36,487 nucleotides of DNA. Source: Candidatus Saccharimonadota bacterium (GTDB lineage: Bacteria > Patescibacteriota > Saccharimonadia > Saccharimonadales > Saccharimonadaceae). Shown here piece after piece: positions 11,535 to 30,737 of the stretch (the first letter of the stretch is position 1; each line of letters opens with the position of its first letter). The stretch covers positions 1 through 36,487 of the forward strand of contig JAFUCF010000014.1 in assembly GCA_017459845.1 (NCBI GenBank), in the 5' to 3' direction. The notes under the pieces were generated by a model. The model ran no database searches. It had not been told where the DNA came from and worked only from the letters and a program-made list of their open reading frames with translations. Both the position numbers and the translations under genes were made by a program.

Positions 11535-11679
11535 ACTCTTGCCTCCTTTTTAAAGAACTAAGCGGGCTAAATGCCCACCATCCACAGGTTACTGACGAGC
11601 TAGGCTCGCCATAAGTACAAGGGCCCGCTCGCCAGCCCACGTGGCGCAAATTTTCGTTTGCGTACCATCTCAGATTATA
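11535..11679 (-). promoter_or_regulatory. Promoter and structured 5' leader of hppA
   Basis: On the minus strand an extended -10 TGGTATAAT (TATAAT at 11674-11679) predicts a start near 11666 and an untranslated leader of about 130 nt. The leader can form CGCAAA/TTTGCG, GGCGAGC-cta-GCTCGTC and GGGC-attta-GCCC hairpins before AAGGAGG and the ATG. Such a long leader is exceptional among the short or absent leaders here. A riboswitch or other RNA control is possible; I could not match it to a known class. Confidence 0.5.
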
Positions 11680-11761
11680 CCACTTCTGTCCTAAAAACAC
11701 AATATACTTATCCCTGTTACTCTTATGCTTATCCCAGCTTGTCAGACAAAAGATTTTGTGT

Positions 11762-11767
11762 TATAAT
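11762..11767 (+). promoter_or_regulatory. Extended -10 TGTTATAAT of der (leaderless)
   Basis: TATAAT ends seven bases before the der ATG at 11775, and no Shine-Dalgarno sequence lies between. Confidence 0.6.
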
Positions 11768-11774
11768 TTTCTTT

Positions 11775-13250
11775 ATGAAAAGTCTCCCTATTGTAGCACT
11801 TATTGGCCAAACCAACGCCGGCAAATCCAGCCTGCTTAACCGCTTTGCGCACAAAAATATTGCCATTGTCGCCCGCGAAGAAGGCACCACCCGCGATAAT
11901 GTCTATGCTCGCATTGGGGATGATTTTCTCTTAGTTGATACTGCCGGCTTAAAAAAGCCAGAAGATGATTTTGAGGCTTCCATCAGAGAGCAAATAGATG
12001 ACGCTATAGACGCCGCCGCTATCATCTGCGTGGTGGTAGATTCCACTAAATATTTTGACGATCACGACCGTCAAATTGCCCGCTCCGCCCTCCGCTCTAA
12101 AAAGCCAGTCTATCTCCTGCTAAATAAGTCTGACCGTGGCGAGTCTTTAGATATCAATGAGTTCCGCGCTCTTGGTATTTCAGAAGACCATATCTTCCGT
12201 ACTTCTGCCACCACCGGACAGGGTATTACAGACTTAAAAAGAACATTAGAAAGAGATTTAGAGCAAAATATAGCCCATCCTGGAAAAACGCTGAGCCAAA
12301 CCCCAGACCTCAAAATAGCCCTCATCGGCCGCCCAAACGTTGGTAAGTCTAGCCTATTTAACTCTCTAGGCCAAAAACAACAAGCCATCGTCAGTTCCAG
12401 ACAGGGAACAACCAGGGACATCAACCGTATGGAAGTAAAATACAAAGGCAAAACTATTGAAATACTAGACACCGCCGGCCTACGTAAACCCGGCAAACGC
12501 GAAGTAGGAATAGAAAAGTTTTCCGCGCTCCGCACTCTTGCCGCCATAGAAGAAGCCGATATTTGCGCCCTTCTCATCGACTCCACCGAGCCACACGCTA
12601 AATTAGACCAAGCCCTCGCCGGCGAAATCATCAAAGCCGGCAAGGGGATTATCCTCATTCTTACTAAAACTGATCTGTTACAAGCTGGTAACCCTCGCCG
12701 GGCTGTTAAGGGGTGGCCCGAAAATGGGGTTCCCCCTGAAGAAGTTTTTTCCGAAGGAAAAAGTTCTTTAGGGGTGAATTTTCGGGACAGGGCCCCGCAA
12801 CACCCGCGCGGGACGAGCCAGCTTGCCACAGATAAGATCCTAGACGAACTAGAATATGATTTTAATTTTATACCTTTTGCGCCAGCACTCATTACATCGT
12901 CTAAAACCGGCAAAAACGTCACTCGGCTCTTTGAGCTTGCACTCACCGTTGACGAGCAACGTCACCATGAGATGAAAACTTCCGAGCTCAACAAAATTTT
13001 GCGTGATGCTATTATTTCCCATCCGCCAGCCGGCCTCAAAAATACCCGCCCAAAACCTAAATACATCGTTCAGACCGACACTTGCCCGCCATGGTTCGTT
13101 ATACACGGCCACGACTTAAAGTTGCTCCACTGGTCTTACAAGCGCTTTTTAGAGCGCAAAATCCGCGAGGTTTACCCCTTTATTGGCACCCCGATTATGT
13201 TCTCTTTCCGGAGTTCAGACCGCGATAATCCAAGAGATATGGTAAAATAA
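11775..13250 (+). CDS. der: Ribosome biogenesis GTPase Der with in-frame insertion
   Basis: This 491-residue double-GTPase assists 50S subunit maturation. G domain 1 has GQTNAGKSS (~9), DTAG (~55) and NKSD (~116). G domain 2 has GRPNVGKSS (~184), DTAGLRKPG (~233) and TKTD (296-299). A KH-like domain fills the last ~90 residues. Normally TKTD is followed within a few residues by the helix before SALTG; here ~48 extra residues (about 303-350) intervene, rich in Gly, Pro, Arg and unlike Der. They are encoded by a 145-bp palindrome. The frame is intact, so the protein may still function with an exposed loop. The start at 11775 is set by the N-terminal MKSLPIVALIG and the -10 seven bases upstream. 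pth follows, with its -10 inside the der stop region. Confidence 0.93.
   Translation: MKSLPIVALIGQTNAGKSSLLNRFAHKNIAIVAREEGTTRDNVYARIGDDFLLVDTAGLKKPEDDFEASIREQIDDAIDAAAIICVVVDSTKYFDDHDRQIARSALRSKKPVYLLLNKSDRGESLDINEFRALGISEDHIFRTSATTGQGITDLKRTLERDLEQNIAHPGKTLSQTPDLKIALIGRPNVGKSSLFNSLGQKQQAIVSSRQGTTRDINRMEVKYKGKTIEILDTAGLRKPGKREVGIEKFSALRTLAAIEEADICALLIDSTEPHAKLDQALAGEIIKAGKGIILILTKTDLLQAGNPRRAVKGWPENGVPPEEVFSEGKSSLGVNFRDRAPQHPRGTSQLATDKILDELEYDFNFIPFAPALITSSKTGKNVTRLFELALTVDEQRHHEMKTSELNKILRDAIISHPPAGLKNTRPKPKYIVQTDTCPPWFVIHGHDLKLLHWSYKRFLERKIREVYPFIGTPIMFSFRSSDRDNPRDMVK
12681..12825. repeat. 145-bp palindromic element inserted in frame in der
   Basis: Outer arms CAAGCTGG and CCAGCTTG are followed inward by further pairing segments: GGG/CCC runs, GGGG/CCCC, CCCGAAAAT/ATTTTCGGG, CCCCT/AGGGG, AGAA/TTCT and a TTTTT-CC-gaa-GG-AAAAA tip. 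The whole element is one long imperfect hairpin. It encodes residues about 303-350 of Der without a stop codon, and falls just after the TKTD motif, where homologous proteins have no comparable segment. Coding palindromic elements of this kind are known from Rickettsia. Confidence 0.8.
13243..13248 (+). promoter_or_regulatory. Extended -10 TGGTAAAAT of pth inside der 3' end
   Basis: TGGTAAAAT overlaps the last codons of der (Met-Val-Lys-stop) and ends six bases before the pth ATG, giving a leaderless message from within the upstream gene. Confidence 0.55.
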
Positions 13251-18794: not shown

Positions 18795-21674
18795 ATGCTA
18801 ACGGACATTATTCATTTTATTCTGATGCCGATAGTCTGGATTCCGATTGTCGGGGTTCTTGGGTTTTTGACCTATCGTAATTACAAGAAAGCCCGCCAGA
18901 GTAAAAATTTGAATGTTGAATCCGTTCTTTTAATGCTTGAAATCCCCCGCACCAACGACAAAAAAGAGCTCGCCGCCGAGCAGCTTTTTGCTAGCCTCCA
19001 CGGTATTTTAAGAGATAAAAATGAGCTAAAAAACTCTGGCGGCGTACAAGAGCATCTCAGCTTTGAAATCGTCTCCACCGGCGGCCAAATCCGTTTTTAC
19101 GTCTGGGTACCTAAAATTCTACAAAGCTTTGTAGAAGGCCAGATTTACGCCCAATACCCTACCGTCCAAATCTATCGTGTGAAAGAGGATTACGTAGATA
19201 AAGCCCGAGAGACTCACCATGTTGTTTACACTTCAGAGATTACGCTCGCTGAAAACGAGGTTTTGCCAATTAAGACCTTTGAAAACTTCGAGGTAGATCC
19301 GCTCGCTGGCATCACTGGTACCCTAGCCAAATTAAACTCCGAGAAAAACGAGGAATTGTGGGTACAAATCCTTACCCGTCCAATACCTGATGATTGGCAC
19401 AAATCCACCACCGACAAATGGGTTCAAAAGATGAAAGCCGGGCGGCGAAGCACTAACTTTCTTGGCATCGATTGGTACTGGGTAGTGACAGCTTTTGGCG
19501 CCCTCTTTCGCCCACCAGAAGGTGGCACCGGCTCAGATACCAAGCCAGAGCTTTCGGACCGCGTTAAAACCCAGATAGATAAGGCCGAAGAAAAGGCTAC
19601 CAAGCTTGGCTATGAGGTTAAAATCCGCCTTGCCTACCTTGGCAATGACCAAATAGACGCCAAGCTCAACATGCAAGCCCTTGTTGGCACCTTTAAACAG
19701 TTTAACTCCACCAACCTCAATGGCTTTACCTCTACTCCAGGTACCTTTGATCCAGCCGCGCTCAATGCCTACAAGGCCCGCCAATTCGCAGATTCTGGCT
19801 TCATCCTAAACATCTCCGAGCTCGCCTCAGTTTATCACCTCCCTCACACCTCTGTTGAAACCCCTAATATCGTCTGGGCTAACTCTAAAACCGCCGAGCC
19901 GCCGGCCTCACTCCCAGTTTTAACAGGGAATAGCATAGTAGACGAAAACATCTCTGCTTTTGGCCTTACTAATTTCCGTGGCATTAATCATCAATTTGGT
20001 CTCCTCCGCCGAGATCGCTCGCGCCACGTTTACATTATTGGCCAAACCGGCGCAGGGAAGAGCGGTATGCTAGAGCTCTTTGCGCTCTCTGATATTTTCT
20101 ATAATCAGGGCTACTGCATCATCGATCCACACGGCGATTTTGCCATTAACAATTTAAGATATGTGCCAAAATCTCGTATTAAAGATGTAGTTTATTTCAA
20201 CCCTGCCGACAGGGAATACCCAGTTGCTTTCAACCCTCTAGAAATATCTGATCCTTCCCGCAAGCCTAACGTTTGCTCAGAAGTTATCGGCGTCTTAAAG
20301 CGGATGTTTGGCGATTCTTGGGGCCCGCGCCTAGAACATATCTTGCGCTACACTCTGCTTGCTCTCTTAGACCGCCCAGAGACTACCTTGCTTGATATTT
20401 CTCGCCTCTTAACCGATAAAGATTTCCGTAAGGAGACTCTGGAATATTGCCAAGATGTCACCGTTCTTCAATTTTGGAAGCACGAATTTGGTCAATGGAA
20501 TGAAAAGCAAGTCAACGAGTCTATTGCTCCTGTTTTGAACAAGGTCGGCGCCTTTACTGCTAACCCCATCATCCGCAATATTATCGGCCAACCAAAGTCA
20601 AGCTTCGACGTTCGTCGTATTATGGATGAGGGCAAAATCCTCGTCGTCAACCTCTCAAAGGGCCTCATCGGCGAAGACAATGCCGGCATCCTAGGCTCAT
20701 TCCTAGTCACTAAAGTTCAGCTTGCCGCTATGTCCCGCTCTGATATCCCTAACGTCGCAGACCGCCGTCCGTTCTATCTCTACGTAGACGAGTTCCAAAA
20801 CTTTGCCACTGATTCTTTTGCTGTAATCCTTTCTGAGGCTCGCAAATACGGCCTTAATCTCACCGTTGCCAACCAATACATCTCCCAGATGACCGACTCT
20901 GTGCGCGATGCTGTCTTTGGCAACGTCGGTACCACCATCTCTTTCCGCGTCTCCGCCGACGACGCTCCAATCCTTGTCAAACAGTTTGAGCCAACCTTTG
21001 AGGCCCAAGATTTACTCCAGATGAATAACCGCCATTTTATCATCTCCATGATTATCAACGGGGAAAAGGTACCTGCTTTCTCAGCTACTACCCTGTCAAT
21101 CCCGCCAACGCCAGATGATAATTTTGCCGCAATCATAGAGAACTCTCGCAAAGGTTACGCCCGAAAAAGGGAAGAGGTAGAGAAAGAAATCCGCGATACT
21201 ATTGAGCAGTCAGAGAAATACAAGAAAGAACTTTCTGATTCTGGCCGCGCCGCTGGTAACCAAGCCGCTGATCTGAAAGATGGCCAAGGGATTAGTATCT
21301 CCCATAATTCCCCTGTTTTCCAGTATCAACCCGTACAAAAACCGAACAAGCCTAACAAACCTATTAAACGCCCATACCAGCCAAAGCCAACTACTCCTAA
21401 AGAAGATTTCCGCCGTCAAAATCTCTCCCCAGATGCCGCCGAAGGTAAAACCGACCGCCCAACCTTAAAAGATCTTGGTAAACTTCTTGCTGAAAAAGAA
21501 CAGAGGTCTACCCCTGTCAATTCCCCTTCTGTCACCCCTGAAGAACAGAGGTCTACCCCTGTTAATCGCTCAGAAGGCTCTAAAACGCATTCTAAGGGCC
21601 CAAATAACCATAGACGCAAGCATCAGCCATACCGCAACAAAAAGGGCAACAAGACGCAGGGAAATGCGAAATAA
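18795..21674 (+). CDS. VirD4/TraG-type conjugation or secretion ATPase
   Basis: A 959-residue membrane-anchored P-loop ATPase of the TraG/VirD4-HerA group. An N-terminal membrane helix (~5-25) is followed by a ~380-residue N-domain, then Walker A GQTGAGKS (416-423), IDPHGDF, and Walker B LYVDEFQNF (Asp665-Glu666). The NQYISQM segment fits the sensor region of these ATPases. The last ~160 residues are disordered, Pro/Lys/Gln-rich, with a tandem EQRSTPVN repeat, and end in a basic tail. No relaxase, VirB4 or VirB8 homologue is near, so whether it moves DNA, protein or pilin is open. It has its own leaderless promoter. Such genes are often chromosomal in Saccharibacteria. Confidence 0.85.
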   Translation: MLTDIIHFILMPIVWIPIVGVLGFLTYRNYKKARQSKNLNVESVLLMLEIPRTNDKKELAAEQLFASLHGILRDKNELKNSGGVQEHLSFEIVSTGGQIRFYVWVPKILQSFVEGQIYAQYPTVQIYRVKEDYVDKARETHHVVYTSEITLAENEVLPIKTFENFEVDPLAGITGTLAKLNSEKNEELWVQILTRPIPDDWHKSTTDKWVQKMKAGRRSTNFLGIDWYWVVTAFGALFRPPEGGTGSDTKPELSDRVKTQIDKAEEKATKLGYEVKIRLAYLGNDQIDAKLNMQALVGTFKQFNSTNLNGFTSTPGTFDPAALNAYKARQFADSGFILNISELASVYHLPHTSVETPNIVWANSKTAEPPASLPVLTGNSIVDENISAFGLTNFRGINHQFGLLRRDRSRHVYIIGQTGAGKSGMLELFALSDIFYNQGYCIIDPHGDFAINNLRYVPKSRIKDVVYFNPADREYPVAFNPLEISDPSRKPNVCSEVIGVLKRMFGDSWGPRLEHILRYTLLALLDRPETTLLDISRLLTDKDFRKETLEYCQDVTVLQFWKHEFGQWNEKQVNESIAPVLNKVGAFTANPIIRNIIGQPKSSFDVRRIMDEGKILVVNLSKGLIGEDNAGILGSFLVTKVQLAAMSRSDIPNVADRRPFYLYVDEFQNFATDSFAVILSEARKYGLNLTVANQYISQMTDSVRDAVFGNVGTTISFRVSADDAPILVKQFEPTFEAQDLLQMNNRHFIISMIINGEKVPAFSATTLSIPPTPDDNFAAIIENSRKGYARKREEVEKEIRDTIEQSEKYKKELSDSGRAAGNQAADLKDGQGISISHNSPVFQYQPVQKPNKPNKPIKRPYQPKPTTPKEDFRRQNLSPDAAEGKTDRPTLKDLGKLLAEKEQRSTPVNSPSVTPEEQRSTPVNRSEGSKTHSKGPNNHRRKHQPYRNKKGNKTQGNAK

Positions 21675-21825: not shown

Positions 21826-22039
21826 AAACTCAGCTTAAGGCTTGTTTAATATGTACTAAGGCTTTTCATCCGTATTGAACGAACCCGATTTTCGGTAAGT
21901 GGCTTACCTAGACGAGTACGCGATAGTCCGCGGCGCAGTCTAGGCTAAGCCACTTATCGAAAATCGGACGTGAGTGAACCTGTAGGATGAAAAGCCTTAG
22001 TACGTATTAAACGAGGCTGAATGGCCTTAAGTTAAGTTT
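21826..22039. repeat. Long palindromic element, left copy (inverted relative to right copy)
   Basis: The element is an imperfect hairpin. The outer arms AAACTCAGCTTAAGG / CCTTAAGTTAAGTTT are followed by a 28-bp stem (GTTTAATA-TGTACTAAGG... / ...CCTTAGTACGTATTAAAC), an asymmetric internal loop of 13 and 17 bases, a second ~28-bp stem (CCGATTTTCGGTAAGTGGC... ) and a 24-base tip containing GAGTACGCGATAGTCCGCGG. Its reverse complement matches 28294-28503 nearly base for base. There is no ORF. Confidence 0.85.
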
Positions 22040-22335
22040 CTTTAACACAGGCTTCTTGTCGCATTTCTAACCCTTCCAGAATTACAAAATTTGTTCAACA
22101 CGAATTTACAGGGGTAGGCGCGTGAAATTTCCACATTTCACGGCCAAATTTTTATAATTTGACATTTCCCCATTTTCATTCCCTATTCATAATTCCCTCC
22201 CTGTTATCTCCCCTCCATCCTTTCCTCCCTAGCAGAAAACCACCCCTAATAATTCCCTCGTTCAATTCCCTATTACCGAACAAAAACCGAACACTTTTTC
22301 CTTAATTTCACCCCTGTTCCACCCCTGTTAATTCC
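22040..22335. other. Gene-free, pyrimidine-rich stretch with short repeats
   Basis: The plus strand is C/T-rich, and AATTCCCT occurs at about 22193, 22251, 22266 and 22332, along with CACCCCTGTT repeats. A GTGAAAT-N6-ATTTCAC palindrome lies at about 22121-22140. ACCGAAC repeats near 22276 recur in the opposite sense near 28537-28590 beyond the right palindromic copy. On the minus strand this is the purine-rich 3' region of the ftsQ-like message. I see no gene. Confidence 0.5.
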
Positions 22336-23055
22336 CTATCCTTCTCCCTGTTCTGCCTCTATAAAGACATCTTCGCTATACTCTTGAGGTTGATATTCTA
22401 CCTCTGTATATTCCTCTACAGCATATTCTACCACATCATCAGTCTCCGCACTAGCCGTAGCGCCTTCTTCTTGTTCAGATGGCTGACTCTCCTCCTCCTG
22501 AGATGCTTCTTCTTGAGACGACGTATCTAGCTTATAATAAGCTTTCTCTTGCACTCTTAAATCTACGTATTCCACCCCCGTATAGCTTTTACTCTTTAAA
22601 TATCGCACTATTCTATCCATATCCTCTGCCGCCACACCGGCCCCTCTGTCTAGTGAGAGCTTAAAATATCCACCAAAATCATTGATATAAACATCTATCT
22701 CGCGCGATTTATTACGTGGTATAACCGCCCGCGCCAAAACTAATCCATATTCCTTTAAATCTTGCTCTAAATACCCCACAAACTCTTTCACCTTCCGCGG
22801 CACTCCGATAGATGCCTCATCCACAATCTGGGCGACCGGCTCTACTTCCAATTTCCCGGGTTTATCTATTTCTACTTCTCTCTTTTTCATACCGATAATA
22901 ATTGAAACAATCCCCAGTCCAATCACCGCTAGTATTGCCAGGTAAGTTACTACAGAAATCATCTTGCGGCGCTTGATTTTTTCGCGGTGTAAAAGCCGTT
23001 CTGATTCTGTTTCTACCTGCTCGCGTCTGCCGCCTATCGTCCTACCGATCCTCAC
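22336..23055 (-). CDS. FtsQ/DivIB-like division protein
   Basis: A 239-residue bitopic protein: basic cytoplasmic tail (1-31), membrane helix (~33-55), then a ~115-residue extracytoplasmic domain and an acidic Glu/Gln/Ser-rich tail (from ~180). The segment IVRYLKSKSYTGVEYVDLRV matches the end of the FtsQ beta-domain, where a VDLR-type strand is typical. Together with its place after murG, this supports FtsQ/DivIB, which joins FtsL/FtsB in the divisome. A full POTRA domain is not obvious, so it would be a reduced form. It starts with GTG and overlaps murG by 14 bases, so it is translationally coupled. The acidic tail is unusual. Confidence 0.6.
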   Translation of the reverse strand: MRIGRTIGGRREQVETESERLLHREKIKRRKMISVVTYLAILAVIGLGIVSIIIGMKKREVEIDKPGKLEVEPVAQIVDEASIGVPRKVKEFVGYLEQDLKEYGLVLARAVIPRNKSREIDVYINDFGGYFKLSLDRGAGVAAEDMDRIVRYLKSKSYTGVEYVDLRVQEKAYYKLDTSSQEEASQEEESQPSEQEEGATASAETDDVVEYAVEEYTEVEYQPQEYSEDVFIEAEQGEG

Positions 23056-24298
23056 CGTCTACCACCTTTATTAGAATAGCCGCTAGTTTCTCCGCCGCAT
23101 TATTCGCCGTAGTTTCGTGTAACTTCTCTGCTAGCTCCCGACGAGCCTTTGGACTCCGCACCAACCTCTGTATCATCTCAAGTAATTTCTCTGGCTTCTC
23201 CACCATTTCATTATCGGCAATCTGCTCTGCCGCACCTATTTTCTGCAGTCTCTCTGCGTTCTTTACTTGGTGCCCACCTGGGAGCGCCGCATATGGTACT
23301 AAAATCACCGCCTTAGATAAGGCCGCCATTTCCGCAATCGTCGTGGCCCCCGCCCGAGATACAATCACATCCGCCGCACCCAAAAGCTCGTGCATCGCCG
23401 GGTTAAATGCCCACATTCTAAAATTAGATTTAAGCTTCGCCTTCTCGTATATTTCATATTTTTTAAGATCAATCATCTCCTCATACTGCGTCCGCCCTGC
23501 CACCAAGCCTACAGAAGTAGTCTTCAAAAGCTCCGGCAAAATCTCACGCACAGAAATATTAATGTGCTGCGCACCTTGCGAACCACCCGTAAAGATTACC
23601 AGCGGCCTATCCACATCATACCCAAAAGTCTTTTTTAGCTGCGCCTGGCGAGTGGGTGAGACCTTCTTAAACTCTGGTGCCACCGGCACCCCTACTTCCA
23701 CAAATTCTGTCTTACCCTTTCTTGATGATGTTTTCGCTAACTCCTCTGCGTCCCATGATGTCGCCACTACTTTAGCCTTTCGTACCAAAAGCTTGTTTGC
23801 CAGCCCAAACACTGCATCCGATTCATGCACTACATATGGTATCCTAAGTAGCCTACAAGCAATCCCTACCGGCAGCCCCACGAACCCACCTTTTAAAAAC
23901 ACCACATCCGGGCGCGATTTCTTACTAACTAGCCTAAAGAAACTCTGTATCATCCCCGCAATAAAGCCAAAAAAACCTACAATGTTTAAGACTATTAAAT
24001 CTCTAAACGCCACATACGGATGTTCTAGGTAGTCAGATAATTTCCAACCAGAATACCGGCGGAATTTTCCTGATAAAACTTTGCGCACTCTAATATATTG
24101 GCGCTTACCAGACATTCTCTCTTCTTCGCCCCAGGCTACGCCAATCTCATTTGTTAGTTTCATCACATTGGCATAATATTTTTTATCCGTCCAAAACTCC
24201 ACCCGCGCTCGCGGCTTTTTCCTTAACAGTTCCCTTACTACCGCTACGGCCGGCGTAATATGCCCGCCACTGCCACCGCCAACTACTAAAACTTTCAT
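23042..24298 (-). CDS. murG: UDP-GlcNAc:lipid I N-acetylglucosaminyltransferase
   Basis: This 418-residue peripheral membrane GT-B enzyme converts lipid I to lipid II at the inner face of the membrane. GGGSGGHITPA (7-17) is the first G-loop. The central HESDAVFGLANK is the lipid-side loop, and FTGGSQGAQHIN and SRAGATTIAEMAAL belong to the donor domain. The later GGHQVKNAE matches the UDP-GlcNAc site. It is about 50 residues longer than E. coli MurG; an extra hydrophobic stretch at about 95-125 (LIVLNIVGFFGFIAG) may strengthen membrane contact. The start overlaps the ftsW stop (ATGA) and its end overlaps the ftsQ-like gene. Confidence 0.93.
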   Translation of the reverse strand: MKVLVVGGGSGGHITPAVAVVRELLRKKPRARVEFWTDKKYYANVMKLTNEIGVAWGEEERMSGKRQYIRVRKVLSGKFRRYSGWKLSDYLEHPYVAFRDLIVLNIVGFFGFIAGMIQSFFRLVSKKSRPDVVFLKGGFVGLPVGIACRLLRIPYVVHESDAVFGLANKLLVRKAKVVATSWDAEELAKTSSRKGKTEFVEVGVPVAPEFKKVSPTRQAQLKKTFGYDVDRPLVIFTGGSQGAQHINISVREILPELLKTTSVGLVAGRTQYEEMIDLKKYEIYEKAKLKSNFRMWAFNPAMHELLGAADVIVSRAGATTIAEMAALSKAVILVPYAALPGGHQVKNAERLQKIGAAEQIADNEMVEKPEKLLEMIQRLVRSPKARRELAEKLHETTANNAAEKLAAILIKVVDGEDR

Positions 24299-25431
24299 GC
24301 CTGTCTCCTTGTATATTGTGATGCCTGCATAGTCAGCCCCAAAGCATATGCCACAAACATCATTGATGTGCCACCATAAGAAAGTAGTGGCAAGGTAATA
24401 CCCGTGAGCGGTATCAGGCCCGTCATCGCCGCTACATTTACAATCAACTGTGATGCAATCCAGCCAAACACCCCCGCTACCATTATCGCTAAAGTATCGT
24501 CTAGAAACGGTATCATCTTAAGCAGTCTAAACAGCAAAAATGTAAATGCTAAAATCAGCAGCGTCAGCCCAAAGAACCCAAAGGTCTCGCCCATCACCGC
24601 AAAGACCGAGTCGTTAATAGACTCTGGGAGATACCCTGTTGCCTGGACAGAGTTACCTACTCCCACCCCCCAAAATCCACCCGTACCAATTGCAAGCAAA
24701 GCGTTGTCGATATGATAAGAAGAGTCAGAATCACCGCCCCCCTTAAAAGTTGTCAATCTCTCCATTCTGTGTGGAGAAATCAAGATAGCCATCGCCCCCG
24801 CCACTAAAATTGCTACGAGCGCCATTCCGAAATATCTTAGTTTCACCCCAGAGATAAAAAGCGATGCTAGAATAATTGCAATCATTGCTGCGCCCGTGCC
24901 CAAATCTTTTTGCAAAATCACCACGAAAAACAGTGAAATCCCAGAGACGAGAATAAACGGCCACCAAAACTCCCAGAAAGAATCTAGTTTCCCCTCTTCT
25001 TTCCGCCGCGCCATTAAATCCGCAAGATAAATCACTAGCGCCACCTTTAAAAACTCCGCCGGCTGGAAGCTTATACTACCCGAGCCTATCCATCTACAGC
25101 CTCCCAGCTGACAAATTGCAAAAGATGATTTCATCAACGCAAGTACCGCCAACAAAGCATTCATTAAAATCGCCGCCAACATTATCCATTTAGCATATCT
25201 ATTCAGCCATTTAATCGGCACTTTCATTGCTACAATAAACGCTATAATTGACATTCCCACGGAAAGCAGCTGATGCAAAAAGAAGCTATTATCAGAATAT
25301 TTTTCCACCCCTAAAGCCGAGTTCAAAAAGTTTGCCCTTTGCGGCCCAATCGCAAAAATAACCACCAACCCCACCGCCATCAGCGCAAGGGTTACCAACA
25401 AAATCCAATAATCTGGCTTATGCTTCCGCAT
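24295..25431 (-). CDS. ftsW: Lipid II polymerase FtsW (SEDS family)
   Basis: A 378-residue SEDS glycosyltransferase with about ten membrane helices, which polymerises lipid II at the septum with FtsI. Family blocks are GGCRWIGSGSISFQPAEFLKVALV, LQKDLGTGA and the late GLIPLTGITLPLLSYGGTSM. The conserved Asp in LQKDLG is present. FtsW is favoured over RodA because of its neighbours; the SEDS family alone does not separate them. The start is the ATG at 25431, six bases after TGGTATAAT on the minus strand, so it is leaderless despite lying within the ftsI-mraY-ftsW-murG run. It overlaps murG by four bases. Confidence 0.92.
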   Translation of the reverse strand: MRKHKPDYWILLVTLALMAVGLVVIFAIGPQRANFLNSALGVEKYSDNSFFLHQLLSVGMSIIAFIVAMKVPIKWLNRYAKWIMLAAILMNALLAVLALMKSSFAICQLGGCRWIGSGSISFQPAEFLKVALVIYLADLMARRKEEGKLDSFWEFWWPFILVSGISLFFVVILQKDLGTGAAMIAIILASLFISGVKLRYFGMALVAILVAGAMAILISPHRMERLTTFKGGGDSDSSYHIDNALLAIGTGGFWGVGVGNSVQATGYLPESINDSVFAVMGETFGFFGLTLLILAFTFLLFRLLKMIPFLDDTLAIMVAGVFGWIASQLIVNVAAMTGLIPLTGITLPLLSYGGTSMMFVAYALGLTMQASQYTRRQA

Positions 25432-25437
25432 ATAAAC

Positions 25438-25443
25438 ATTATA
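25438..25443 (-). promoter_or_regulatory. Extended -10 TGGTATAAT of ftsW (leaderless)
   Basis: Read on the minus strand, TGGTATAAT ends six bases before ATG 25431. It gives an internal promoter within the division gene run. Confidence 0.65.
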
Positions 25444-25490
25444 CCATAAATCAGAAGGCGGGACAGCAAACCCGACAAATCGGCTCAATA

Positions 25491-26522
25491 TTATCTAGAG
25501 ATAATCCCGCCAATTGCGGCCAAAAATACGCCAACAATCGCGAGTACGCCAGATATTACCCAAAACCGCATCACAATCTTCGCCTCCCCCCATCCTTTTG
25601 CCTCCAAATGATGGTGAATCGGCGCTGAAATAAACACTTTACGATGAAAGAGTTTTTTAGAGACAATTTGGACTAGCGACGAGCCCGCCTCTATCACTAG
25701 CAGCCCGCCAATAATCGGGAGTAAGAACAGCGAGTTTGTCATCATCGCCACCGCTCCAAGTCCAGAACCCAGCGCAAAAGAACCTACATCCCCCATCATA
25801 AACCGCGCCGGCGGCACATTAAACCAGACGTAAGAAAGCAACCATCCGCAGACCGTAAAGCAAAACCCAGCCAGCATCCATTGGCCCTGAAACAGCGCAA
25901 TTACACCAAAGGCGCCGTAAGAAATCATCGTAATCCCCCCCGCCAAGCCATCTAACCCATCCGAAATGTTCACAGCGTTAGACGTTGCTACCACCGCAAA
26001 AGCAAAGACAACAATCATCAACCATTCTGGCAAAAGCCATTCCCCTACAAACGGAATATGAATAGAGCTCCACCCAAGTTTCACTGCAAAATACCAGCCC
26101 AGCGTCACCCCCACCACGGTAATCAAAAAGAATTTTACCGGCGCCCGCAACCCAGCTGCGCCTTTACCAGAGCCAAAAACATTAATTAAATCATCAATCA
26201 GCCCCACGATAGAGCCCGCGATAAACGCCACTAGCGGCAGCCAAGTCTGCCCCCTATCCCAGTTACAAATTATCGTTACAAACCAAACCGTCACCACCCC
26301 CACAATCCCCGCCATTGTTGGGAAAGCCCGGCGAAACTTATGCGCGTGCAGCCGCGACATTACCGGCAAAGCCTCGCCGGTCAAAGTCTCTTTTTTCTGC
26401 TTCTTCCACCATTTATATTTGTAAGCAAAGTAAGTATAAATCGGCGTTAAAAACATTGCAAAAAGGAATGCCCCAAGGGCCAACACTAGCCCATAAAACA
26501 TTTCGCCTTTCATATTCATCAT
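25491..26522 (-). CDS. mraY: Phospho-MurNAc-pentapeptide transferase
   Basis: A 343-residue integral membrane enzyme that joins UDP-MurNAc-pentapeptide to undecaprenyl phosphate, forming lipid I. The Mg2+-binding pair is Asp110-Asp111 in GLIDD; the NAVNISDGLDGLAGG block lies at 182-196, FMMGDVG (Asp245) follows, and the His cluster APIHHHLE is at 300-307. About ten helices are visible. The start ATG directly follows the ftsI stop (TAA-ATG) with GGAG about nine bases upstream; a second ATG follows at once. It therefore depends on ftsI transcription and translation. The WW-KK region at 38-45 is usual for a cytoplasmic loop. Confidence 0.94.
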   Translation of the reverse strand: MMNMKGEMFYGLVLALGAFLFAMFLTPIYTYFAYKYKWWKKQKKETLTGEALPVMSRLHAHKFRRAFPTMAGIVGVVTVWFVTIICNWDRGQTWLPLVAFIAGSIVGLIDDLINVFGSGKGAAGLRAPVKFFLITVVGVTLGWYFAVKLGWSSIHIPFVGEWLLPEWLMIVVFAFAVVATSNAVNISDGLDGLAGGITMISYGAFGVIALFQGQWMLAGFCFTVCGWLLSYVWFNVPPARFMMGDVGSFALGSGLGAVAMMTNSLFLLPIIGGLLVIEAGSSLVQIVSKKLFHRKVFISAPIHHHLEAKGWGEAKIVMRFWVISGVLAIVGVFLAAIGGIISR

Positions 26523-28253
26523 TTAGCTTGTCTCCGTATTTGGTTTTATTTTTAGATAGTCAATTAGCCACATCTTCAAATCTTCAAATACTGGTCTTAC
26601 TTCTTCATCTGAGGAAACCGTTCTATTCGGCTCCCACATCTTAGTAATTATAACATACTCCGGGTGGTCTTGAGAAGAGCCGCCAAAGCCAATGTAACCA
26701 GAGATAAACTCGTCCATCACGTAAGCCCCATCTCTAATCGCCTGTGCTGTACCAGTCTTACCACCAAAGTAATATTCATCCGGATCCCCCATCCACCACC
26801 GTGTATCATGCAACATAGACCGCATTGTAGCTGAGGTCTCTGCCGAGACGGTATTTGTCCTCACCGGCTCCTTCTGCTCTGCCTTTTTAAACTTCCCATT
26901 TTCATCCATATATCCCGCCACCACTGTCGGTTGATAATAATTCCCTCCGTTGATGATAGAGCTCCACCCCGCCGCCACTTGCACCATCGTCACATCCAAC
27001 CCTTGGCCAAAAGTCATGTTGGCATAGGTAGAGTTATAGGCATATTCTGAATCTGGCGACACCACCGTGCCCGGGCTCTCAAACAGCTCAATCCCCGTGT
27101 ACTGCCCCAGCCCAAAATGATTGTAATAATAATCATAGAGTAGTTCCTTCCCCGCCTGAGTAATCGCATCCGTACTCCCGCCAAGCAGCCTCAAAGCCTG
27201 TACGCTCCCCGTGTTAAGCGACCATTTCAGCGCCGTCCGCATCGTAATCGTGCCTAGCTGTTGCGATGTGTCCGCGTTATCAATCTGCCAGTTATCTACC
27301 ATCGTAGAGCCATTATTTTCATAAGTTGTCTCTGAAGTCATTTTCCCCTCGTTAATTGCCGCCGCCATCGTAAAGCCTTTACAAATACTCCCCGGCTCAT
27401 ACGGCACCTCTAAAACTTCGTTTACGTATACGCTCGCATCCGCCACGTTGCCATACTCCGCTGGATTGTAAGATGGTAGGCTCACCATTGCTAGTACCTT
27501 ACCAGTATTCGGATCATAGACCATGGATGCCCCATGCGAAATCCCCGTGTCTTTTAAGTGTTGTTTTAAGACATCTTCTACCTTTTTCTGGATGTTTCTG
27601 TCTATCGTTAGTACCACGTTCTTCCCGTTTTCGGCCGGTATCCGTACGTTATCATCCCCGATAGAAAGCGCCACCTTGTTTACATCCGTAATGGTTTTTA
27701 GCATCCCGTTCTTCCCTGCCAAAGTCTCATTTAAAGCCCCTTCTACGCCGTATTGCCCTACGCCCTCTGCGTTCACAAAGCCCAGCGTACTCGCCGCCAA
27801 ATCCCCCTCTGCATAAACTCTCTGGTTGTAAGATTGCGCATACATCCCGCCCGGCGCCACCTCAGAAAAAGCCAAGTAATCATCCCGGCTCACACCTTTC
27901 GCCACCACTAAATATCTAATATTTTCATCCTTAAAAGCATCGTCAATCTCATTTATTGTCCAATGTTTTTTATCAATTTTCTGCATCGCCTCACGCATCG
28001 CGTCTTTGTCTGTCACCTGCGGATCTACCACGACTGTCCAAACGGTAGTATTTAGCACTACCGGCACCGGCTCATCCCCATCCATCATATAAATCTCCCC
28101 CCGCTTTGCTACAATATCATAAAGCGAGGTATGCTCTGCTGCCGCCTTTGCCACATACGTGTCATGCTCTAAAATCTGAATCTGAAAAAGCCGCGCCAAA
28201 ATAACCGCTACTGCTAAACCTAAGCACAAACGTAAAAACTTAACGCGCTTCAT
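26523..28253 (-). CDS. ftsI: Septal penicillin-binding protein (FtsI-type transpeptidase)
   Basis: A 576-residue class B PBP, anchored by a helix at ~8-24, which cross-links septal peptidoglycan. The dimerisation domain follows, then the transpeptidase with SxxK as Ser289-Ile-Cys-Lys292, SxN at Ser345-Leu-Asn, and KTGT at 499-502. All three motifs are intact. The canonical position after Ser, often Thr-Phe-Lys or Val-Phe-Lys, is Ile-Cys-Lys here. I start it at the ATG at 28253, six bases after TGGTATAAT (28260-28265). It leads the minus-strand division block and its promoter abuts the right palindromic element. No PASTA domains are seen. Confidence 0.92.
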   Translation of the reverse strand: MKRVKFLRLCLGLAVAVILARLFQIQILEHDTYVAKAAAEHTSLYDIVAKRGEIYMMDGDEPVPVVLNTTVWTVVVDPQVTDKDAMREAMQKIDKKHWTINEIDDAFKDENIRYLVVAKGVSRDDYLAFSEVAPGGMYAQSYNQRVYAEGDLAASTLGFVNAEGVGQYGVEGALNETLAGKNGMLKTITDVNKVALSIGDDNVRIPAENGKNVVLTIDRNIQKKVEDVLKQHLKDTGISHGASMVYDPNTGKVLAMVSLPSYNPAEYGNVADASVYVNEVLEVPYEPGSICKGFTMAAAINEGKMTSETTYENNGSTMVDNWQIDNADTSQQLGTITMRTALKWSLNTGSVQALRLLGGSTDAITQAGKELLYDYYYNHFGLGQYTGIELFESPGTVVSPDSEYAYNSTYANMTFGQGLDVTMVQVAAGWSSIINGGNYYQPTVVAGYMDENGKFKKAEQKEPVRTNTVSAETSATMRSMLHDTRWWMGDPDEYYFGGKTGTAQAIRDGAYVMDEFISGYIGFGGSSQDHPEYVIITKMWEPNRTVSSDEEVRPVFEDLKMWLIDYLKIKPNTETS

Positions 28254-28259
28254 ACCATA

Positions 28260-28265
28260 ATTATA
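28260..28265 (-). promoter_or_regulatory. Extended -10 TGGTATAAT of ftsI (leaderless)
   Basis: The minus-strand TGGTATAAT ends six bases before ATG 28253. It lies only about 30 bases inside the right palindromic element. Confidence 0.65.
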
Positions 28266-28293
28266 CCATAACCGCGACAAATCAGCATGCTAG

Positions 28294-28503
28294 AAAACTC
28301 AGCTTAAGGCCATTCAGCTTCGTTTAATACGTACTAAGACTTTTCATCCTACGGGTTCACTCACGTCCGATTTTCGGCAAGTGGCTTAGCCTAGACTCCG
28401 CCGCGGACTATCGCGTACTCGTCTAGGTAAGCCCCTTACCGAAAATCGGGTTCGTTCAATACGGATGAAAAGCCTTAGTACGTATTAAACAGGGCTGAAT
28501 GGT
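28294..28503. repeat. Long palindromic element, right copy
   Basis: The same imperfect hairpin as 21826-22039, in inverted orientation. It begins AAAACTCAGCTTAAGG, then shows the GTACTAAG...TTTTCATCC stem, GATTTTCGGCAAGTGGCTTAG stem, a CTCCGCCGCGGACTATCGCGTACTC tip region, and the returning arms. The few differences from the left copy are mostly single bases in arms and loops. Outer arms differ: CCATTCAGC/GCTGAATGG closes this copy. Confidence 0.85.
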
Positions 28504-28644
28504 ACTGTAGTCAAATATCCAAGTTACGAGCCGATTTGTTCGGTTTTTTGTTCGGTCCAAGTGTTCGGTTTTCCCCTGTTCTGTTCGGTGGAAAACTCAT
28601 GGTTTCTGGTGGAAAAATTACGAACAAAAAGTCCAAAAAAACTC
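28504..28644. other. Intergenic stretch with TTCGGT repeats
   Basis: Repeated GTTCGGT / TTCGGTTTT units occur at about 28537-28590, some separated by 5-10 bases, and match in the opposite sense the ACCGAAC repeats near 22276 outside the left palindrome's inner flank. CCCCTGTT is also shared with the left flank. No gene is seen. Confidence 0.45.
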
Positions 28645-28673
28645 TTGCAAAGTTTTTTAATTTCGTTTATACT
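28645..28673 (+). promoter_or_regulatory. Near-consensus sigma70 promoter
   Basis: TTGCAA (28645-28650), exactly 17 bases, TATACT (28668-28673). The predicted start is about 28680, directly before ATG codons at 28681 and 28685. Confidence 0.65.
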
Positions 28674-28684
28674 TAAGTCAATGG

Positions 28685-28819: not shown

Positions 28820-29082
28820 GGTTGGCCAAATGGGAGTTTTGGTGCGGGTTTAGGATACCCGAAATCAAAACCATCCGCACCTCCATTAACACCTCCCAAT
28901 TAACTCTAATGAATCAACTTTAAATGCACAATAACCTCTCAACTGCCAAGATATGAGATGAACTCCGGTTCATCAGATCGTGGTAATAGTTATTGTAATT
29001 TATTTAAACAAAAACCATACAAACACAAACACACTAAAATTCTCATTTGGGCGATCTCAAACAAAGGTGTATAATATACACA
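28820..29082 (+). other. Hairpin-rich stretch before rsmH, and its leaderless promoter
   Basis: TGGGAG...CTCCCA encloses GGTGCGG...CCGCACC (about 28828-28901), and a perfect GATGAAC-tccg-GTTCATC hairpin lies at about 28960-28977. The first may terminate or stabilise the small transcript; there is no clear T-run. TGTATAAT (TATAAT 29070-29075) ends seven bases before the rsmH ATG. I found no mraZ gene and no convincing MraZ box here. Confidence 0.5.
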
Positions 29083-29964
29083 ATGAAGACATTTCATAAT
29101 CCTGTATTGTTATCACAAGTCTTGGCGGTTTTAAAGCCCGCGCCGGGAGAGTCATATTTAGATTTGACAGCCGGTTACGCAGGTCATGCCAGTCAGATTT
29201 TGGCGTTAACGCGGAATTATAAAGATTCATGTCTCGTGGATAGAGATGCAAACTCTATTAAATTCTTAGAGGCGAAGTACCATAATGGTGAAGCAATAAG
29301 ACTTATCCACGATGACTTTTATAACGCTGCGTTTTCTCTTAAGAGTAGTGGAAAGACTTTTGATTTAATACTGGCCGATTTTGGAGTGTCCTCTCCGCAG
29401 CTAGATGATGGAGAGCGTGGTTTTTCTTTCACGAATAACGGGCCACTAGATATGCGTATGGATTCTTCGCAGGCTTTGTCTGCTGATACTATCGTAAATC
29501 ATGGTTCCCTGCGGGCTCTAGCCGATATTTTCCAAAAATACGGTGAGCTAAGCCCTAACTTATCGCGAAAGCTCAGCCTTAAAATTATACAAGCTAGACC
29601 AATTAAAGATACTGCTTCTCTAGCAGATGTCGTGACAACGGTCTTGCCACGTCGTGGCCGGATACATCCTGCAACCAGGGTTTTCCAGGCGGTTCGTATT
29701 GCCGTCAACGACGAGTTAGGTATAATAGAACGCACTCTGCCGCTCATTCCAGATTTATTAAATCCCGGCGGCCGCGTCGCTATCATCACTTTCCATAGTC
29801 TAGAAGACAGGCTAGTCAAAAATTATTTCAAAGAAGTTTCTTCCTACGGTGAAGAATCGAAACTAGAGATAATCACTAAAAGCCCAATCACTGCAGAGAG
29901 TTTGGAGTTAGGTATCAACCCTCGCGCCCGCTCTGCGAAACTTCGCGCGGCCAAGCGAGTTTAG
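29083..29964 (+). CDS. rsmH: 16S rRNA m4C1402 methyltransferase RsmH
   Basis: This 293-residue SAM-dependent enzyme (formerly MraW) N4-methylates C1402 in the ribosomal decoding centre. HNPVLL at the start, the SAM loop DLTAGYAGHAS (where GG is more usual than AG), ADFGVSSPQLDDGERGFSF, and the later GGRVAIITFHSLEDRLVKNYF are all family blocks. It ends in the expected basic RSAKLRAAKR. I start it at ATG 29083 because TATAAT ends seven bases upstream and MKTFHNPVLL is the usual beginning. In most bacteria it heads the dcw cluster; here it is separated from ftsI by an inverted repeat and faces the other way. Confidence 0.95.
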   Translation: MKTFHNPVLLSQVLAVLKPAPGESYLDLTAGYAGHASQILALTRNYKDSCLVDRDANSIKFLEAKYHNGEAIRLIHDDFYNAAFSLKSSGKTFDLILADFGVSSPQLDDGERGFSFTNNGPLDMRMDSSQALSADTIVNHGSLRALADIFQKYGELSPNLSRKLSLKIIQARPIKDTASLADVVTTVLPRRGRIHPATRVFQAVRIAVNDELGIIERTLPLIPDLLNPGGRVAIITFHSLEDRLVKNYFKEVSSYGEESKLEIITKSPITAESLELGINPRARSAKLRAAKRV

Positions 29965-30004
29965 ATACAAATAAAAATCATAAAAACAAAAAAAGGAGGC
30001 ACCT

Positions 30005-30070
30005 ATGCCACGTCAAATCATTGTCGCGAACAAATCTCGCGCTCAAAAAATCAAAGTAAACTTCCGCTAG
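30005..30070 (+). CDS. 21-residue basic mini-ORF with strong ribosome binding site
   Basis: ATG 30005 to TAG 30068-30070 encodes 21 residues (MPRQIIVANKSRAQK...VNFR), six of them Lys or Arg. An AAAGGAGG sequence ends about five bases before the ATG, one of the strongest Shine-Dalgarno sites in the window, where most genes have none. It lies between rsmH and a multi-hairpin RNA region leading to ftsL. I do not recognise the peptide. It may be a leader peptide, a ribosome-associated microprotein, or a translation-coupled switch. Real translation is likely given the SD; function is unknown. Confidence 0.5.
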   Translation: MPRQIIVANKSRAQKIKVNFR

Positions 30071-30386
30071 TTTAACTTTGTCATAAAAAATTGTACCTTT
30101 AAATCTAGTCTAATTGGCCAACCTGCTCAATACGACTGAGCAGGCTGACCAACTTACTAGAAAACATAAATTATGGGGCTAATTTCGCTAAACGAAACTA
30201 GCTCCACCAGAGAGTTTAGAGTTATCTTTGGAGTGTGAAAAAAATATGACCTTCCCGAAGGAGTGGAGATAAGTGCCGGTGGCGACACCCTCCATCCTTC
30301 GGTCTATGTGGGACCGCCTACCGAACAGGTAAAACGTCCATACCAATCAAATATAAAAACATAACGAGTGGAGTAACAAAACAAAA
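30071..30386 (+). ncRNA. Multi-hairpin RNA region between mini-ORF and ftsL
   Basis: No ORF of note. Four hairpins are clear: CCTGCTCA/TGAGCAGG extended by TTGG..CCAA (30114-30153); GGGGCTA/TAGCTCC plus TTTCG/CGAAA ending in ACCA (30175-30209); CCGAAGGA..TGGAG/CTCCA..TCCTTCGG around GCC-ggt-GGC (30255-30302); and GGAC..TACC/GGTA..GTCC (about 30310-30340). It could be an ftsL 5' leader or a processed ncRNA. I could not match it to tmRNA, RNase P or SRP RNA despite the tRNA-like 3' end of the second hairpin. Confidence 0.5.
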
Positions 30387-30737
30387 ATGCGATCAGGGGA
30401 ATATACAACAAGACGAGGTTACGCCGGCCAAATGAGCTGGACACGCAACCGCAATACTGTTAAGCACGAAGGCAGAAGCCTCGGCCCAATTAGTCTTATT
30501 GGTATGTTCCTGATGCTCATCACTGTTATGGGTATGATTTACCTCACCCAAGGCACCAAAGCCACTTCGTATGATTATCAGCTAAACGAGCTAGACACAG
30601 AAATTGCCGAGCTTACCGCCGAAAAAGAAGATCTCGCCGTAGAAAAAGCTCGCCTTACTTCCATCGCTGCCGCTAACGATTCTGCCGTTGCCGCCGCCAT
30701 GCCGACCGCTTCCGTCTCCGGCTATGTAGGCGAATAA
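30387..30737 (+). CDS. ftsL: FtsL-like divisome protein
   Basis: A 116-residue bitopic protein with a basic cytoplasmic tail (1-34), one membrane helix (~36-55, ISLIGMFLMLITVMGMIYL) and an extracytoplasmic coiled coil (~63-97, with ELDTEIAELTAEKEDLAVEKARL). Size, topology and the place after rsmH all fit FtsL, which bridges FtsB/FtsQ and FtsI in the divisome. FtsL is too variable for motif-based proof. The Ala/Ser-rich end is atypical. GTGGAG lies about 15 bases before the ATG, rather far. An alternative start is the Met at residue 16. Confidence 0.65.
   Translation: MRSGEYTTRRGYAGQMSWTRNRNTVKHEGRSLGPISLIGMFLMLITVMGMIYLTQGTKATSYDYQLNELDTEIAELTAEKEDLAVEKARLTSIAAANDSAVAAAMPTASVSGYVGE

Follow-up and report, generated by a model that had tools for sequence, protein, structure and literature searches.

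MITEs such as ERIC and the Correia elements are short, palindromic, dispersed and non-autonomous, often lie at gene ends, and have conserved inverted repeats at their termini and, in most cases, a target duplication. Integron attC sites are recognised as folded single strands with extrahelical bases and variable stems. Rickettsia palindromic elements (RPE) are palindromes of about 150–200 bp, present in several families per small genome, both in intergenic regions and in-frame in unrelated housekeeping genes. For such genes it was reported that the protein is still made (PMC10969869, PMC6649704), that the RPE encode a conserved peptide (PMC10969869) and that they lose repeat identity over time (PMC6649704). 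REP/BIME sequences with their RAYT (Y1) transposase are likewise palindromes of intergenic regions, possibly read in the form of folded single strands. A length of 20–40 bp is reported for REP (PMC3733652). Finally, perfect long inverted repeats are present in mitochondrial genes of Nematomorpha and were attributed to template switching (PMC6649704).

The window analysed here, a stretch of 36,487 nucleotides from a Candidatus Saccharimonadota bacterium, contains two palindromic elements that flank a block of cell division genes. el1 (21826–22039, + strand; best family match E 5e-109) is located between the convergent ends of the open reading frame 18795–21674 (o18795) and ftsQ (22336–23055), and el2 (28294–28503, − strand) lies 14 bp upstream of ftsI, between ftsI and rsmH, at a synteny breakpoint. 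Both are inverted repeats that fold, and both match our covariance model, at 21868–21986 (+) and 28348–28466 (−), respectively. Between them they form a 205-nt inverted repeat, whose arms at 21835–22039 and 28295–28499 are 94% complementary (192 of 205 positions identical in opposite orientation). Folding energies were −124.5 kcal/mol for the el1 hairpin (z −17.6) and −118.7 kcal/mol for the el2 hairpin (z −13.9); in neither case did any of 200 shuffled sequences fold equally well. A preliminary description of this DNA had recorded two near-identical inverted copies, each of them hairpin-forming in itself. This was borne out, with coordinates correct to a few bases and near-perfect hairpins far beyond shuffled sequence. 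Its gene names also held for rsmH, ftsW, mraY and murG; ftsI encodes a class-B penicillin-binding protein, and ftsQ, which has no family match, is named from its position only. On the evidence below we consider it likely that el1 and el2 belong to a genus-restricted, dispersed and probably mobile family of RPE-like palindromes, whose arms would be kept complementary by concerted evolution at the DNA level.

Using el1 as a BLAST query against its own genome (737,231 bases in 41 contigs), many dispersed copies were found. A covariance model (R1), built from an alignment of 17 copies (A1), detected 18 strong copies (E below 1e-21) and also picked up a second subfamily with five weaker members; together these copies are distributed over 16 contigs. 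The genome contains about 23 copies in total, at least 21 of them in addition to el1 and el2, and most are without a nearby inverted partner. The search for additional copies that the preliminary description had called for was therefore positive, with single unflanked copies as the rule, which argues against its proposal of a composite transposition unit. At one locus (L213, G000 C8, 10256–10640), two copies of this family, family A, adjoin in opposite orientation and have outer-arm sequence in common.

When 40 genomes were searched by BLAST with the 214-base el1, none of the 39 besides its own, which included 23 congeners, gave a match, because the stems share little sequence; covariance models do find the family in relatives. 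R1 detected it in 20 of 120 genomes and a broader model, R2, in 93 of 394, of which 92 belong to the same genus and one to a sister genus of the same family. The R2 survey scored only nine candidates per genome, and the copy numbers it gives are therefore minimum values; it found no family copy in any of about 166 further genera of the order. A viral origin was rejected, as two core patterns had zero matches in viral contigs. The closest named RsmD relatives are from Candidatus Saccharibacteria, mostly from ruminant guts. In the portion of the literature on palindromic and MITE-like repeats in Saccharibacteria that was covered, we found no description of these elements.

The elements are about 160–220 bp long, and family-A copies have the motifs CGARCC ... 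GAGYA-hairpin-GCGCA ... ACGYGAG in common. From the outside inwards, a tandem-GA/bulge internal loop (CGARCC/ACGYGAG) is followed by a stem of about 20 bp, a bulged C, a 7-bp stem, a second internal loop (GAGYA/GCGCA) and a small apical hairpin. In el1, the motif CGAACC on the 5′ side of internal loop 1 (21880–21885, +) corresponds to columns 13–18 of A1 and has a mean pairwise identity of 0.91; GGACGTGAG on the 3′ side, with its bulge (21966–21974, +), has an identity of 0.89 across copies, and columns 16 and 106 covary. The apical core CGAGTACGCGATAGTCCGCGGCGCAG (21913–21938, +) is conserved with identities of 0.75–0.94 across copies and includes the covarying P4 pair 55–64. The corresponding positions in el2 are 28449–28454 for CGAACC, 28360–28368 for GGACGTGAG and 28396–28421 for the apical core, all on the − strand. 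Within the genome the spacing of the motifs is nearly fixed at 89–91 nt, with one copy at 85.

Conservation is strongest in the loops (75–94% identity between copies), lower in the inner stems (55–72%), and at background level (26–29%) in those parts of the arms that lie over 20 bp outside the loops; these are still paired in all copies. The conserved unit is the folded architecture and not the ends. In A1, 93.3% of cells were paired compared with 75.7% after shuffling, both sides had changed in 24 of 35 pairs, and the covariation score was 0.483 compared with 0.166 after shuffling, with none of 500 shuffles reaching the observed score. When the partner was shifted by one base, pairing fell to about 40%.

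This genome has at least six copies in-frame in conserved genes, namely those for ObgE, TyrRS, DnaX, LepA, PheT and RsmD; a seventh, at the edge of contig C12, overlaps an open frame there and is excluded from the six. ObgE and LepA of relatives hold palindromes at the same linkers. For LepA the palindrome families differ by species, and in other species the linker is short and lacks a long hairpin. TyrRS orthologues of congeners align on either side of the insert and not across it. For RsmD, the nearest relative has the insert, another species has a different palindrome and a third has none. In an AlphaFold2 model of a relative's RsmD (L074) the fold was of high confidence and insert residues 91–150 had a mean pLDDT of about 42–56; the insert is predicted to be disordered on an intact fold. 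Palindrome families vary between species at the RsmD and LepA linkers as well as at the ftsQ/o18795 junction, which may reflect replacement where palindromes already existed, and not fresh insertion.

As in RPE, multicopy palindromes of about 150 bp are inserted in-frame in unrelated functional genes. Unlike RPE, the present family keeps its pairing while the stem sequence is free, and is defined by conserved internal loops; its host belongs to another phylum, there is no sequence match, and no RPE family was among the NCBIfam matches listed for the host proteins. In-frame palindromic elements in essential genes, known from Rickettsia, are thus also widespread in an ultra-small, host-dependent phylum, with several families and at least 92 species in Saccharibacteria. 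With the coding palindromes of Nematomorpha the family has in common long inverted repeats in coding genes and arms kept complementary, but it differs in its conserved internal loops and in a shared core that is spread between loci.

Dispersed related copies, together with congeners that lack the insert, indicate that the core has spread between loci, and the distribution points to transposition. Copies would persist where harm is small, that is at gene ends, at other intergenic sites and in in-frame protein linkers. Their arms may be kept complementary at the DNA level by template switching between the arms at the replication fork or in a cruciform; stem sequence would then drift freely and pairing would stay. 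Switching between palindrome arms has been published as a mechanism of concerted change of this type (PMC6649704). At the RsmD site shared by two species, the outer arms have diverged, yet they are paired within each species, and one mismatch is common to both. These data fit ongoing concerted change better than an inverse duplication of target sequence on insertion, which was rejected as the origin of the outer arms. Fixed loops combined with free but paired stems make the family a natural test of template switching versus selection for arm identity.

It is also conceivable, though we hold it only tentatively, that the element is a mobile DNA hairpin recognised by its fold (internal loops, bulges and fixed spacing) and not by its sequence, so that the stems could be rewritten at each site with mobility kept. 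If so, a fold-reading enzyme outside the families tested would be needed. attC sites offer a comparison in mode of action only, as folded single strands: in the present elements no R/L boxes were seen, there are no cassettes, the apex is conserved rather than variable and the conserved motifs differ. A genome-wide motif scan found one tyrosine recombinase, which, unlike an integron integrase, scores highest as XerD/XerC and remains below the integron-integrase cut-offs. Its gene (C12:1691–2635) and a family-A copy (C12:1256–1372) are about 300 bp apart, a closeness that may be coincidence. In contrast to REP/RAYT systems, neither this genome nor the element-bearing congeners searched have the Y1 transposase (PF01797), and an IS200/REP-type Y1 transposase was rejected as mobiliser on these grounds; among the congeners searched it was found in two (G040 and G057), neither of which is listed with family copies. 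Overall, the search for a mobilising enzyme found none.

The RVT_1 reverse transcriptase is almost confined to the genus among those searched, and this genome carries it on contig C15. We did not take it as the mobiliser, since its distribution within the genus does not follow that of family A and a DGR-like variable protein is encoded nearby. At this locus (L220, G000 C15, 2–439 and 1559–2728), the reverse transcriptase of about 390 aa is found near a protein with a DGR-variable-like end (GYYWSS..NKNLGFSVRC), and the locus is probably a diversity-generating retroelement.

Covarying stems would also result from compensatory selection on a folded nucleic acid. A structured RNA family, be it a ribozyme, a riboregulator or an RNase-processed hairpin, whose stems covary through a selected RNA fold, would account for the textbook covariation with conserved internal loops and bulges and for the many copies close to gene 3′ ends. 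If an RNA fold were selected, G–U should outnumber A–C among single stem mismatches. Counted without a folding program, G·T and A·C mismatches numbered 46 and 33 overall, no significant excess (p 0.18) in a test of limited power. In relatives the ratio was 24:22, and copies inside genes gave 10:10; in this genome it was 22:11 (p 0.08), a slight lean to GU. GU pairs make up about 1% of cells in A1. Moreover, intragenic copies are not confined to one orientation relative to the message, being antisense in ObgE but sense in TyrRS and LepA, and no Rfam family matched. Mismatch counts and orientations favour a DNA-level process over an RNA function, although selection on a folded strand is still conceivable, and we regard the RNA reading as improbable. 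Apparent covariation in bacterial repeats hence need not imply structured RNA.

Slightly less probable still is that the copies are non-mobile hairpins retained for gene expression, as bidirectional terminators or for mRNA stabilisation. Several copies do lie within tens of base pairs of the stop codons of one or both neighbours, and palindromes are present at the ftsQ/o18795 junction in six species. Five of 15 classified intergenic copies are between convergent genes, compared with a background of 30 of 177, but this apparent excess rests on few copies. On the other hand, seven of the 23 copies lie in open frames and two in divergent regions.

The dispersed palindrome family also resembles classical MITEs, non-autonomous transposons with conserved terminal inverted repeats that are cut by a DDE transposase encoded elsewhere: the elements are small, multicopy and palindromic, have no gene of their own, and three copies have longer arms in common. 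Unlike in MITEs, however, the ends are unconserved, with an outer-arm identity between copies of 0.26–0.29, equal to background, and conservation is central. By eye, no target-site duplication was evident, and no empty site from the same species was found. We therefore consider a classical MITE unlikely, at the lower end of the alternatives named so far.

Family A is accompanied by other palindromes. A fold census of the genome yielded 37 palindromes that are unbranched and have 55 or more stacked pairs, as well as branched ones, belonging to several families. One of about 167 bp (12670–12836, + strand; 64 stacked pairs), of a different, unclassified family, lies within the window in-frame in the Der/EngA GTPase gene (11658–13250), in the region of the second GTPase domain. 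A second family, B (CTAGACAATGCGTCAGCCGCCCCGC...GGCGGCGGCTAGCGTCTAG), has conserved stretches of its own and occurs in G000 for example at C12:3601, C12:5451, C31:4351, C33:17851, C38:37851 and C38:80801. Copies of a third, C (GGGGATACGGAGC..GGCGAGTAGTAGCGCC..GGACGCGCCCCGA), are found at C2:6201, C2:25201, C26:6751, C10:55001 and C36:6201; several are in open frames, and the family is also present in LepA of the relative G004 (L291). A fourth, D (GATGCGATGAAGCGGGAG..GTACT..AGTAC..CCGCTGAAGAAGCAG), is located at C9:3351, C12:4451, C12:6901, C12:16701 and C12:19201, with two copies in open frames.

SbcD is a nuclease of palindromes and hairpins. None of 60 genomes of the order had an SbcD over the curated cut-off; in control genomes the protein was detected in 13 of 14 and exceeded the cut-off in 8 of 14. 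Absence of a recognisable SbcD would make long palindromes tolerable and is thus permissive but not sufficient: it does not by itself explain the elements, because other genera of the order without SbcD have no family-A copies. The elements provide a natural test of long-palindrome tolerance in a genome without recognisable SbcD.

The ftsI-mraY-ftsW-murG-ftsQ block between el1 and el2 (22336–28280, − strand) keeps its order in relatives through the ftsQ/o18795 junction. Across 20 congeners compared, the usual order is o30743, rsmH, ftsL, ftsI, mraY, ftsW, murG, ftsQ and o18795, with rsmH to ftsQ in one direction and o18795 in the opposite one. In the present genome, the segment from ftsI through ftsQ to o18795 is intact, with el1 in the convergent ftsQ/o18795 junction, which is palindromic also in G048, G049, G042, G007 and G041, with two or more families involved. 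By this gene order, the junction at el1 is ancestral. An el1–el2 flip would break it and is hence not what happened. Compared with relatives, it is the rsmH-ftsL segment (29047–30737, + strand) that is inverted relative to ftsI. el2 is situated at the rsmH/ftsI breakpoint; the other breakpoint has no element, and two stop codons are separated there by a few bases. An assembly mis-join at el2 is possible, given 41 contigs and long repeats that resemble each other. On the reading preferred here, it is incidental that the two copies bracket the division genes; el2 nonetheless lies on a real rearrangement breakpoint.

Although 94% identical inverted copies bracket the block and el2 coincides with a real break in synteny, recombination between el1 and el2 that flips the 6.2-kb division block on and off is very improbable in view of about 23 dispersed copies on 16 contigs, the ancestral el1 junction, an actual inversion (rsmH-ftsL) with no copy at its other end, and no linked recombinase recognised in the window (the one XerC/D-like protein being encoded elsewhere in the genome). 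The invertible segment or site-specific inversion system of the preliminary description is thus not upheld; of its MITE pair or mobile unit, a dispersed, probably mobile palindrome family remains, and the pair does not.

Upstream of rsmH (28640–28680), in a region rich in GTTCGG repeats, a promoter-like TTGCAA-17-TATACT was noted that by scan is at or below chance expectation. In two relatives (L186, G050; L187, G043), the ftsQ end of the division block is located upstream of rsmH on the same strand, which indicates that the dcw cluster has been rearranged more than once in the genus.
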